A stretch of DNA of 64,000 bases from Ottowia testudinis (GTDB taxonomy: Bacteria > Pseudomonadota > Gammaproteobacteria > Burkholderiales > Burkholderiaceae_C). The number at the start of each line of letters is the position of its first letter. The first letter of the stretch is position 1. The notes beneath the pieces were generated by a model. It was not told the origin of the DNA. It was given only the letters and a program-made list of their open reading frames with translations, and searched no databases. Made by a program: the position numbers and the translations under genes. Positions 23,298 to 30,725 of the stretch are shown here, in pieces. Location of the stretch: positions 2,418,001 through 2,482,000 of the forward strand of contig NZ_CP071796.1 of assembly GCF_017498525.1 (NCBI RefSeq). Direction: 5' to 3'.

Positions 23298-23374
23298 GTA
23301 GGCTGGGTTGAGCGAAGCGAAACCCAGCAGCGAGGTGACCGCTTCGCTGGGCTTCGCTTCGCTCAACCCAGCCT
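23298..23374. repeat. REP palindrome interrupted at its end by IS110 copy 1
   Basis: The arm GTAGGCTGGGTTGAGCGAAG (from 23298) pairs with CTTCGCTCAACCCAGCCT ending at 23374. Its missing final AC is found directly after the insertion sequence at 24590-24591, so the element split the terminal CCTAC. Family members are at 27579-27810, 29787-29877, 29948-30020, 30637-30725 and 30853-30941. Confidence 0.85.
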
Positions 23375-23394
23375 TGTATCTTTCCCCTCGAAGC

Positions 23395-23540
23395 AAAGAG
23401 AGCGTGTACCCAGCCTTAAAGCCTGGACTTTGATCCGTAGATGACGCCCTTTGCTTCTTCTTCGTTCACCGGTCATTGACACTGAACGGTAGCCAAGGGC
23501 TTTGACCCTGTATGTACAAGGCAAGTGCGGTGAGCAGGTG
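23395..23540 (+). ncRNA. Candidate IS110 bridge RNA, copy 1
   Basis: Target-binding loop: an outer stem GCGT/ACGC (23402-23405, 23444-23447) encloses ACCCAGCCT (23408-23416), equal to the left target half of copy 1 including core CT; then a hairpin AAAG/CTTT (23418-23431); then CCGTAG (23435-23440), the complement of the REP end CTACGG. Donor-binding loop: an outer stem CACT/AGTG (23480-23483, 23524-23527) encloses ACGGTA (23486-23491), equal to the right end of the element (24581-24586); a hairpin AGGG/CCCT (23496-23509); and TACAAGG (23515-23521), the complement of the left end CCTTGTA. The order target loop then donor loop matches published bridge RNAs. RNA ends are approximate. Confidence 0.72.
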
Positions 23541-23589
23541 ATTCGATGGTTTGTTGTTGTCATTGTTTTCAATAGCGAGGAATCAACCC

Positions 23590-24572
23590 ATGTTCTCCAT
23601 CGGCATTGATGTGGCCAAAGCCAAACTCGATGTCTGTGTCCTCTTTGAGCAGCGCAGCCGCACCAAGGTGGTGCCCAACTCGCCCGCCGGCTTTGCGCAG
23701 TTGCTGGCCTGGCTGCAACAGCATTGGCCCACGCAGCCCTTGAGCGGCTTTCACGCCATTCTGGAAGGCACTGGTGCCTATCACGAAGCCGCTGCTTGCG
23801 CCCTGTTCGATGCCGGTATCCGGGTGTCCATCGTCAACCCGGCGCAGGTGCGTGACTTTGCCCGGGGACTGGGCATTCGCACCAAGACCGACGGCGTGGA
23901 CAGCGCCGTGCTGGCGCGCTACGGGCTGCTGGTGCAACCGGCGGCCTGGACGCCCCGCCCGCGCATGTGCGCGTGCTGCAGGCCTTGCTAAGCCGGCGCG
24001 AGGCGATCGCCCAGGACTTGCGGCGTGAGCGCAACCGGCTGGAGAAGCAACAGGCCGGCCAGCCCGTGGTGCTGGTGCAGTCGTCCTTGGAGGACTCGAT
24101 TGCCTTCTTGCAGCAGCAGCTCAAGGACATTGAGCGGCAGATTGATCGGCACATTGACAGCCACCCGGATCTGAAGGGCGATGAGCAACTTCTGCAAAGC
24201 ATCCCTGCGGTAGGTGAGAAGGTCAGCACACAGATGCTGAGTCTGCTGCGCAGCCGCAGTTTCGACACCGCCGAGCAACTGGCCGCTTATCTGGGGTTGG
24301 TGCCTGTTGAGCGGCAGTCGGGCTCTTCGCTCCTGGGCAGGGCGAGGCTGTCGAAGGCGGGGCCGGCCAAGCTCAGAGCCACGTTGTACATGGCAGCGGT
24401 GGTGGGCACTCGATACAACCCGCATGTGAAGGCTCTGTACGAGCGGCTGCTGGCCAACGGCAAGCCCAAGATGGCTGCGCTGGGCGCGGCCATGCGCAAG
24501 CTGGTGCATCTGTGCTTCGGCGTGTGGAAGCACCAGCAGCCTTATCGGGCAGATTTGGTAAATACCGCTTGA
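23590..24572 (+). pseudogene. IS110-family transposase, split by a one-base frameshift
   Basis: The ATG at 23590 (MFSIGIDVAKAKLDV) follows GAGG. The first frame ends at 23991 and carries the RuvC-like DEDD residues (GIDVAKAKLD, ILEGTGAYHE, KTDGVDSAVLARYG). The second frame (open from before 23967 to 24572) carries the Transposase_20 domain, including LLQSIPAVGEKVSTQML and the probable nucleophilic Ser in VERQSGSSLLG. The break is at a C run near 23951-23954: one more C would give TPPPAHVRVLQALL, a normal IS110 sequence, and a protein of about 328 residues. Copy 2 has the same break. Whether slippage restores the full protein is unknown. Confidence 0.85.
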
Positions 24573-24674
24573 CAGGCAAGACGGTATCTACAAGTTGCGT
24601 CTTTTTGCTTCTATTTTGGTAGCTGGCAGCGCTTATCAGACAAGCGCTGGCGACCCAAAATACTCAAAATCCGA

Positions 24675-28565: not shown

Positions 28566-28588
28566 CCCGGTAGATACCGTCTTGCCTG

Positions 28589-29571
28589 TCAAGCGGTATT
28601 TACCAAATCTGCCCGATAAGGCTGCTGGTGCTTCCACACGCCGAAGCACAGATGCACCAGCTTGCGCATGGCCGCGCCCAGCGCAGCCATCTTGGGCTTG
28701 CCGTTGGCCAGCAGCCGCTCGTACAGAGCCTTCACATGCGGGTTGTATCGAGTGCCCACCACCGCTGCCATGTACAACGTGGCTCTGAGCTTGGCCGGCC
28801 CCGCCTTCGACAGCCTCGCCCTGCCCAGGAGCGAAGAGCCCGACTGCCGCTCAACAGGCACCAACCCCAGATAAGCGGCCAGTTGCTCGGCGGTGTCGAA
28901 ACTGCGGCTGCGCAGCAGACTCAGCATCTGTGTGCTGACCTTCTCACCTACCGCAGGGATGCTTTGCAGAAGTTGCTCATCGCCCTTCAGATCCGGGTGG
29001 CTGTCAATGTGCCGATCAATCTGCCGCTCAATGTCCTTGAGCTGCTGCTGCAAGAAGGCAATCGAGTCCTCCAAGGACGACTGCACCAGCACCACGGGCT
29101 GGCCGGCCTGTTGCTTCTCCAGCCGGTTGCGCTCACGCCGCAAGTCCTGGGCGATCGCCTCGCGCCGGCTTAGCAAGGCCTGCAGCACGCGCACATGCGC
29201 GGGCGGGGCGTCCAGGCCGCCGGTTGCACCAGCAGCCCGTAGCGCGCCAGCACGGCGCTGTCCACGCCGTCGGTCTTGGTGCGAATGCCCAGTCCCCGGG
29301 CAAAGTCACGCACCTGCGCCGGGTTGACGATGGACACCCGGATACCGGCATCGAACAGGGCGCAAGCAGCGGCTTCGTGATAGGCACCAGTGCCTTCCAG
29401 AATGGCGTGAAAGCCGCTCAAGGGCTGCGTGGGCCAATGCTGTTGCAGCCAGGCCAGCAACTGCGCAAAGCCGGCGGGCGAGTTGGGCACCACCTTGGTG
29501 CGGCTGCGCTGCTCAAAGAGGACACAGACATCGAGTTTGGCTTTGGCCACATCAATGCCGATGGAGAACAT
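28589..29571 (-). pseudogene. IS110-family transposase, copy 2, same frameshift as copy 1
   Basis: Translations of both parts are identical to those of copy 1: the DEDD half ends at 29170 and the Ser half runs to 28589. The missing C is at the same place, so the frameshift was present before the element moved here, or gene conversion has homogenised the copies. Confidence 0.85.
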
Positions 29572-29620
29572 GGGTTGATTCCTCGCTATTGAAAACAATG
29601 ACAACAACAAACCATCGAAT

Positions 29621-29766
29621 CACCTGCTCACCGCACTTGCCTTGTACATACAGGGTCAAAGCCCTTGGCTACCGTTCAGTGTCAATGACCGGTGAACGAA
29701 GAAGAAGCAAAGGGCGTCATCTACGGATCAAAGTCCAGGCTTTAAGGCTGGGTACACGCTCTCTTT
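29621..29766 (-). ncRNA. Candidate IS110 bridge RNA, copy 2
   Basis: Mirror of the copy 1 candidate with the same sequence. Left target guide at 29745-29753, right target guide at 29721-29726, left donor guide at 29670-29675 and right donor guide at 29640-29646. The target here (CACCCCAACCTAC) differs from the guide at two positions, showing that the same guide would have to tolerate mismatches. Confidence 0.68.
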
Positions 29767-29786
29767 GCTTCGAGGGGAAAGATACA

Positions 29787-29877
29787 AGGTTGGGGTGAAT
29801 GCAATGAGCCCCAACATTCGGCGGTTGATACGGAACCGCGCTCGTTGGGGTTCGCTGCGCTCACCGCCAACCTACGG
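29787..29877. repeat. REP palindrome, left end split by IS110 copy 2
   Basis: AGGTTGGGGTGAATGC...AGCCCCAACATTCGGCGGTTGAT, then CGTTGGGGTTCGCTGCGCTCACCGCCAACCTAC ending about 29875. Two nested stems can form. The family's typical end CCTACGGG is intact here. Confidence 0.8.
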
Positions 29878-30068: not shown

Positions 30069-30617
30069 TCATTCCAACGCGCGCCAATACGCGGTGTTGG
30101 GCGGCGCTGGCAACGCATGCTCGGGGCTGCCCCAATTCGCGGGCAAACGGCCTTGGCGGATGTACCGGTGCAACGACGAATGCGGCCAATCGACGGCGTT
30201 GCGCACGTGGCCGTGCTTGACGGGGTTGAAATGGATGTAATCGATGTGGTTCGCCAAATCCGTCTCGTCACGAATCTGGTGTTCCCAATACCGGCGCTGC
30301 CAAATGCCGCGTTCGCCCTTGGTGCGGCGGCTGGCGCCGATGCGTTCGCTGGCGGGCAACTGGCGTGAAAACCCGGCCTTGATCAATGCCCACCGCCCGG
30401 CATAATCGGCATCGCCCGGCGGCAATTGCCACACCGCGTGCAAATGCTCGGGCATGACGGCAATGGCGACGATCTCGAACGGGTGCCGCCGCCGCACCAC
30501 AGCAAACGCCGCGCGCAAGGCGTCGACATGCCGCACCAGCGTGTCGGCACGCCGGTCGGCCAGGTTCACCGTGAAGAAAAAGGTGCCGCCCGGCACCCAG
30601 GCGCGGCGGTATTGCAT
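30069..30617 (-). CDS. REP-associated tyrosine transposase (RAYT)
   Basis: 182 residues, a single-copy Y1 transposase related to IS200 TnpA. The HUH-type motif is MPEHLHAVWQLP near residue 55. The catalytic Tyr is in NHIDYIHFNPVKHG near 130. WQRRYWEHQIRDE is typical of RAYTs. These proteins process REP sequences, and REP palindromes lie on both sides here (29787-30020 and 30637-30941), so gene and substrate form a 'REPtron'. It is transcribed toward the IS110 copy. All key residues are present and the frame is open. Confidence 0.92.
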   Translation of the reverse strand: MQYRRAWVPGGTFFFTVNLADRRADTLVRHVDALRAAFAVVRRRHPFEIVAIAVMPEHLHAVWQLPPGDADYAGRWALIKAGFSRQLPASERIGASRRTKGERGIWQRRYWEHQIRDETDLANHIDYIHFNPVKHGHVRNAVDWPHSSLHRYIRQGRLPANWGSPEHALPAPPNTAYWRALE

Positions 30618-30636: not shown

Positions 30637-30725
30637 GTAGGTTGGGGTGAGGCACGAACCCCAACATTCGGCGGTTGATGGGGCGTCGCCTATGTTGGGG
30701 TTCGCTGCGCTCACCGCCAACCTAC
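30637..30725. repeat. REP palindrome in duplicated unit 1
   Basis: GTAGGTTGGGGTGAGGC...CGCTGCGCTCACCGCCAACCTAC with inner stem GAACCCCAACATTCGG/CTATGTTGGGGTTCG. It lies 20 bp upstream of the RAYT start codon on the other strand. Confidence 0.85.

Follow-up and report, generated by a model that had tools for sequence, protein, structure and literature searches.

The IS110 element and its split recombinase frame

The stretch analysed here (the window, 64,000 nt) is part of the single-contig 4.32-Mb genome of Ottowia testudinis (completeness 99.96%). It contains two copies of an IS110 element, copy 1 at positions 23373–24589 on the plus strand and copy 2 at 28572–29788 on the minus strand. The ends, which in copy 1 run from the left core CT (23373–23374) to the right core CT (24588–24589), were set by comparing the ten copies present in the genome. 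A preceding sequence-only reading had described the two window copies as the same, and indeed there is no difference between them across 1216 bp, frameshift included. Copy 1 has inserted into a REP-type inverted-repeat unit, the left part of which lies at 23298–23374 (plus strand). A gene for a REP-associated tyrosine transposase (RAYT) is found at 30069–30617 on the minus strand (NF047646; 198 bits, cut-off 80), with further REP-type repeats beside it at 30637 and 30853; copy 2 sits about 300 bp from this gene, inside another REP-type repeat.

Genome-wide, the inventory comprises nine near-full-length copies, a tenth that is cut by an insert, and a fragment of the right end; the copies are 99–100% identical at ten different targets. 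The element has the long non-coding left end and the CT core of the IS110 group, with no target duplication beyond the core. The cut copy (L010/L011, genome 3533764–3535859) is broken just past the frameshift region by an insert of about 870 bp with terminal inverted repeats. The fragment (L012, genome 2681373–2681464) consists of 92 bp of right end near CCCAACCTAC (2681360–2681369), a remnant of an older copy, and is likewise adjoined by CTAC.

The recombinase comprises a DEDD_Tnp_IS110 domain (PF01548) and a Transposase_20 domain (PF02371), that is, the RuvC-like and Tnp domains with catalytic serine typical of the IS110 group, and in the window copies these are in different frames. In copy 1 the N-terminal fragment, with the DEDD RuvC-like domain, spans 23590–23991 (plus strand) and loses its frame at a C run at 23953–23956; the C-terminal fragment, with the coiled coil and the Tnp domain, follows in the other frame at 23967–24572 (plus strand). 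The latter matches NF033542, the model for IS110 RNA-guided transposases, with 122.5 bits; a fragment would be expected to fall short of the cut-off of 140, as this one does, and an open copy scores 223 bits. In eight of the ten copies the run has lost one C (CCCC, not CCCCC), which breaks the frame at about residue 122 of the open version. In the alignment with IS621 this point falls at the boundary between the RuvC domain and the coiled coil. One of the eight copies also holds the insert. Two copies have open frames, of 343 residues (L006) and 341 residues (L009).

Copies 1 and 2 share the frameshift and show no differences although they occupy two targets, so a frameshifted copy has probably moved, either with recombinase provided in trans or with its two fragments acting together. 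Alternatively, gene conversion or a sequencing error within the C run may account for the observation; the completeness value argues against poor sequence quality. Most copies were probably mobilised in trans by recombinase from the open-frame copies.

The predicted bridge RNA in the left end

An alignment of 29 left ends, that of the window element among them, predicts two loops in series. The first, for target binding, has an outer stem and an inner hairpin; the second, for donor binding, has a hairpin of its own. In copy 1 the predicted bridge RNA spans 23389–23540 on the plus strand, with an approximate 3′ end, and in copy 2 it spans 29621–29772 on the minus strand. The 5′ arm of the outer stem, GAAGCAAAG at 23390–23398 (plus strand), has its partner at 23449–23457, as judged by the alignment, the covariance model and stem covariation. 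Within the target-binding loop lie the left target guide (LTG), ACCCAGC-CT at 23408–23416, and the right target guide (RTG), GTAG at 23437–23440, which pairs with CTAC; the two are complementary to opposite strands of the element's own target, as in IS621. The donor-binding loop at 23480–23527, closed by the stem CACT/AGTG, holds the donor guides LDG (ACGGTA, 23486–23491) and RDG (TACAAG, 23515–23520), and these match the joined element ends, again as in IS621-type bridge RNAs. All of these guide and stem segments of copy 1 are on the plus strand.

Most of this layout had been put forward in the sequence-only reading. Its assignment of ACCCAGCCT at 23408–23416 to the left target half including the core CT agrees with the sequence, as do those of ACGGTA (23486–23491) to the right end (24581–24586) and of TACAAGG (23515–23521) to the left-end CCTTGTA (23372–23378). 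Both short hairpins (AAAG/CTTT; AGGG/CCCT) and the stems that enclose them (GCGT/ACGC; CACT/AGTG) are likewise present. Its right target guide had to be shortened, as described below.

When the left end (186 nt) was dinucleotide-shuffled 20,000 times, the four guides (LTG 9 nt, RTG 4, LDG 6, RDG 6) never appeared together in this order; singly, the LTG was found in 28, the RTG in 10,371, the LDG in 278 and the RDG in 572 of the shuffled sequences. Because the matches had been picked by eye, the independent tests weigh more than this one. A single-sequence fold of the left end is unremarkable in energy (z −1.24, against −1.40 for the opposite strand), so the case for the structure rests on comparison, and a search of Rfam 15 returned no match at gathering thresholds. 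In the 29 left ends, double changes were observed in 25 of the 31 predicted pairs, and the 28 relatives alone gave 140 double-change cells, compared with 38.8 after shuffling. Sliding the partners abolished this signal; the structure that was scored had itself been derived from the alignment. The 28 relatives, with the window excluded, also served to build a covariance model. In the window it matched the two copies and nothing else, at 23389–23527 on the plus strand (E 6.3e-29) and at 29634–29772 on the minus strand, with 119 bits each. Its 14 matches in the genome correspond to the ten copies of the element and to four copies of a second IS110 element (37 bits). The RNA is thus placed in the left end and, judged on this position, the element lacks the right-end RNA that marks the IS1111 group.

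The donor guides are nearly invariant in the relatives, and for this reason their assignment rests on matching rather than on covariation. This part of the RNA bears on the seekRNA description of such elements, according to which a shorter processed RNA would carry target matches only and donor-loop pairing would not be essential; the published account of ISEc21 (IS110 family), which worked with a 74-nt and even a 58-nt RNA (PMC11187229), speaks for it. In our alignment, however, the invariant columns of the RNA fall mostly in the donor loop, whose stems show partial covariation, and in the window element this loop fits both ends, so that we regard the shorter RNA as unlikely here and a bridge RNA with a working donor loop as the better description.

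The joined ends would also provide a promoter. A −35-like TTGACA at 24569–24574 and a −10-like TATCTT at 23377–23382 (both plus strand) are brought together only in the circular form, where they are 17 nt apart, giving at the motif level the junction promoter of IS621-type elements. Of the 18 elements whose right end could be read, 13, the window element among them, have TTGAC at this spacing (once at 18 nt). Scanning the linear element detected no promoter, which fits one that arises only in the circle. In the circular form, then, the joined ends would create a sigma-70-like promoter TTGACA-17-TATCTT that transcribes the bridge RNA from the left end, with a start near 23389, about 7 nt past the −10 motif and at the foot of the target-loop stem.

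Insertion targets and the guides of related elements

All ten insertion targets in the genome read CCCANC-CT-AC. Oriented with the element, the left flanks are [A/C]CCCA[G/A/C]C-CT and the right flanks CT-AC in 10/10 copies. The sequence-only reading had paired a 6-nt guide, CCGTAG, with CTACGG at the REP end. The letters CCGTAG do stand at 23435–23440, but only the four-nucleotide match to CTAC is supported: CTACGG adjoins neither window copy, and past CTAC the ten right flanks (AAG, CGG, GGG, GTT, GAA, CGG, ATG, CAG, AAA and GGG) have nothing in common. The 6-nt guide was therefore rejected in favour of GTAG, a 4-nt right target guide as in IS621.

On the left side, position 1 of the target is A in eight copies and C in two, the latter differing from the guide. 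Position 6, just ahead of the final C, carries G in four copies, A in four and C in two, so that six of the ten targets differ from the guide there; an A in the target could be accommodated by the guide G as a G:T wobble. The target of copy 2, CCCCAACCT, has two mismatches to the guide, one of them a possible wobble of this kind. The pattern CCCANCCTAC occurs at 44 unoccupied sites in the genome, compared with 20 for the reversed pattern, and four times in the window against 0.16 expected. With free sites taken from these pattern counts, a preference for a perfect match at position 6 could not be demonstrated (4/15 perfectly matching against 6/39 differing sites occupied; Fisher p 0.44).

Nine of the ten targets form one edge of an inverted repeat of REP type, at least 8 nt long with the target edge included, and in the tenth (L003) the repeat is only 6 nt; at least three sequence variants of the repeat are represented. 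Together with the RAYT gene in the window, this bears out the earlier description of the element as REP-targeting.

One copy (L004, genome 2896776–2897995 plus flank) carries a 42-bp tandem duplication of its left end, the boundary of which falls exactly at the core inside the left target guide. As the DNA of the guide itself (ACCCAGCCT) matches the left target and the boundary coincides with the core, self-targeting was considered, by insertion into the bridge RNA gene and subsequent collapse. Slippage between two near-identical 10-nt repeats is the simpler explanation, and the guide DNA reads TAAA after its core and not AC. The self-insertion junctions of two related elements were also sought in plasmids, where 848 and 18 records matched; none of the matches listed covered a whole query, the best coverage being 82% (best 15 of 848) and 68% (best 10 of 18).

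Relatives were collected by searching with an open recombinase frame taken from one of the genome copies, in overlapping samples of 29 genomes of the genus, 399 of the family, 399 of the order and 369 of the class, to which were added three loci from genome contigs found by a protein-only scan, two of them used, and 18 loci from plasmids. Left ends were located by element-end and donor motifs and not by guide match. The first guide comparison dropped 12 of 47 loci in which the left-end or donor motif was not recognised by pattern; the majority of these were distant (about 35–43% identical) or cut, whereas L077 and L081 were lost to the pattern alone and later restored. The alignment list was hand-picked and holds 31 relatives, 45–66% identical. 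Five loci of 40–42% identity were left out of the later guide tests; in the first comparison their LTG matches, of nine, were 6 (L055), 6 (L067), 5 (L069), 6 (L071) and 8 (L072). The flank test used 29 elements including the window element, with L091, L092 and L093 dropped as near-duplicates of L062 and L090, and the RTG test used the 18 of these with a readable right end, leaving 11 unused; the right end of L087 in the flank test is probably misplaced.

Each element's own left flank matched its LTG at a mean of 6.45 of the 7 non-core positions, as compared to 4.15 for permuted flanks, and the summed matches (187) exceeded the permuted mean of 120.4 (sd 4.7) and the maximum of 139 reached in 20,000 permutations. 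The match was 7/7 in 18 elements, six in seven, five in three and four in one. In 26 of the 29 no other flank matched better than the own one, and in 21 the own flank stood strictly above every different flank. Contiguous RTG pairs averaged 5.17 in the 18 elements against 2.95 permuted (0/20,000), with six or seven pairs in L052, L060, L061, L063, L065, L074, L076 and L085. In L060, L061 and L063 the LTG is weak or out of register, yet the RTG pairs 7/7, whereas L051 fits poorly on both sides (LTG 7/9, RTG 2). The guide letters opposite the core are AT in L060 and L061 and CA in L065 and L085, not CT, and core pairing of the left guide may thus be dispensable.

An unanchored scan of 32 elements placed the best left-flank match 56–62 nt from the left core in 28. 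The exceptions are L060 at 65 nt (seven extra nucleotides at its end), L063 at 54 nt (out of register), L083 at 104 nt, where the best match lies elsewhere in the RNA, and the window element at 35 nt, which lacks the 5′ stem-loop described below.

Two multi-copy elements found with the RNA model were compared on the left side only. In one (G518) the LTG matches 7–9 of nine positions in five copies, with flanks that appear REP-like by eye, and in the other (G764) it matches 8–9 of nine in six copies. The five G518 copies (L099, L116, L118, L121 and L124) have two guide variants, ACCCACCCT and ACCCCCCCT, and in four of the five the site departs from the guide in the middle, at either or both of two positions. 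One locus (L105) was mis-anchored in the automated analysis, with a repeated TGTATC. Guides track their own flanks across the 29 elements, and also across the ten insertions in the O. testudinis genome, as would be expected from the sequence-only reading.

These comparisons decide against the left end being a regulatory leader or an antisense RNA for the transposase, with guide matches that reflect coincidence or shared repeat content. RNAs of this kind (Asr9 and Ssr9) are described for ISPpu9, a REP-targeting member of the IS110 family (PMC8450116). A regulatory RNA would not explain guides that change with the insertion sites across 29 elements, four matches in an order seen in none of 20,000 shuffles, or an unanchored match at 56–62 nt in 28 of 32 elements, and we consider it extremely improbable. 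The earlier proposal of a bridge RNA of a REP-targeting IS110 element is instead supported by the covariance model, the tracking of flanks by guides and the ten targets.

The missing 5′ stem-loop and the relation to known elements

A stem-loop between the left end and the target-binding loop folds in all 28 aligned relatives (−4.7 to −16.6 kcal/mol), being weak in a few such as L051, and also in 13/13 further loci from four genomes, several of which are copies of one element; this count leaves out eight lower-scoring model matches (L107–L114, 47–69 bits). In the window element it is absent, against 41/41 compared loci, and the fold of this region reaches only −2.8. The distance from the core to the donor motif is 111 nt, compared with 126–150 nt in the relatives, and leaves no room for it. 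The 5′ stem-loop is described as structurally conserved, and its deletion in IS621 as lowering RNA binding and slightly lowering recombination (PMC11208158). We treat its absence as a variant feature, not as one that defines IS621-type bridge RNAs.

The bridge RNA mechanism has been published for IS621 of Escherichia coli (PMC11208160; PMC11208158), and a mechanism of the same kind for seekRNA elements (PMC11187229). The recombinase aligns with IS621 over residues 3–322 of 327 (8wt6, phmmer E 4.9e-62), and both the DEDD region and the serine region stay in register. Both elements have a left-end bridge RNA with the order LTG-RTG-LDG-RDG, a CT core, a junction promoter and a 4-nt right target guide, and the natural target of IS621, ATCAGGCCTAC, is reported to be a REP site ending in CCTAC (PMC11208160). 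Unlike IS621, the present element has ACCCAGC as its left target guide, lacks the 5′ stem-loop and has a split recombinase frame in most copies. Insertion into REP sequences is also described for ISPpu9, ISPpu10, ISPa11 and others (PMC1525189; PMC8450116), which by the published description are likewise multi-copy, with all copies at one position of the host REP; for ISPpu9 an AG dinucleotide repeated at both ends is reported (PMC1525189; PMC8450116). The second IS110 element of O. testudinis (L094–L097, genome regions 1442400, 1740000, 2672200 and 3497600) is similarly guide-matched, with the LTG fitting its own flank at 8/9 and the RTG at 7/7 in 4/4 copies. Its left end is short, and folding of a single copy showed no clear 5′ hairpin. 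It differs in its recombinase (about 41% identical) and in its repeated target TGCGTC-CT-CTGCG.

Taken from the sequence, the element is very probably an IS621-type insertion sequence of the IS110 group with a left-end bridge RNA that guides target and donor pairing. The bridge RNA, lacking the usual 5′ stem-loop, would start at the target-loop stem. Where a REP-type repeat begins, at its foot, the target-binding loop would pair with one strand at ACCCANC-CT and with the opposite strand at CTAC. The donor-binding loop would pair with the element's own joined ends, and the recombinase would exchange strands at the CT core. We infer that the RNA is transcribed, that it forms a complex with the recombinase and that the element is active. 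The RNA and its guides could also be real in a decaying element that is now immobile, which would be compatible with the bridge RNA identity and compete only with present activity. The frame is split in eight of ten copies, one of which also carries an insert, and the 5′ stem-loop has been lost; set against this are the 99–100% identity of copies at ten different targets, the identity of copies 1 and 2 including the frameshift, and the open frame in two copies, and we consider such a relic possible but less likely than an active element. A further reading, a naturally minimised bridge system in which a stem-loop-less RNA and a two-polypeptide recombinase (RuvC; coiled-coil/Tnp) have spread to new REP sites without help from the intact copies, seems to us unlikely.

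The novelty is modest: this is a new element of a kind already described, the mechanism and the use of REP sites being known, for IS621 too. Its unusual features are the shortened RNA and the recombinase frame split in most copies. The element joins the natural examples of RNA-guided target choice and leaves the known mechanism standing. Ten insertions made with one guide amount to a natural specificity profile, in which CTAC is fixed and position 6 of the left target is free. The split frame in copies that appear to have moved makes the working of bridge recombinases in trans, or as two pieces, testable. If the element is active, nature would tolerate the loss of the 5′ stem-loop that was tried in the laboratory for IS621.
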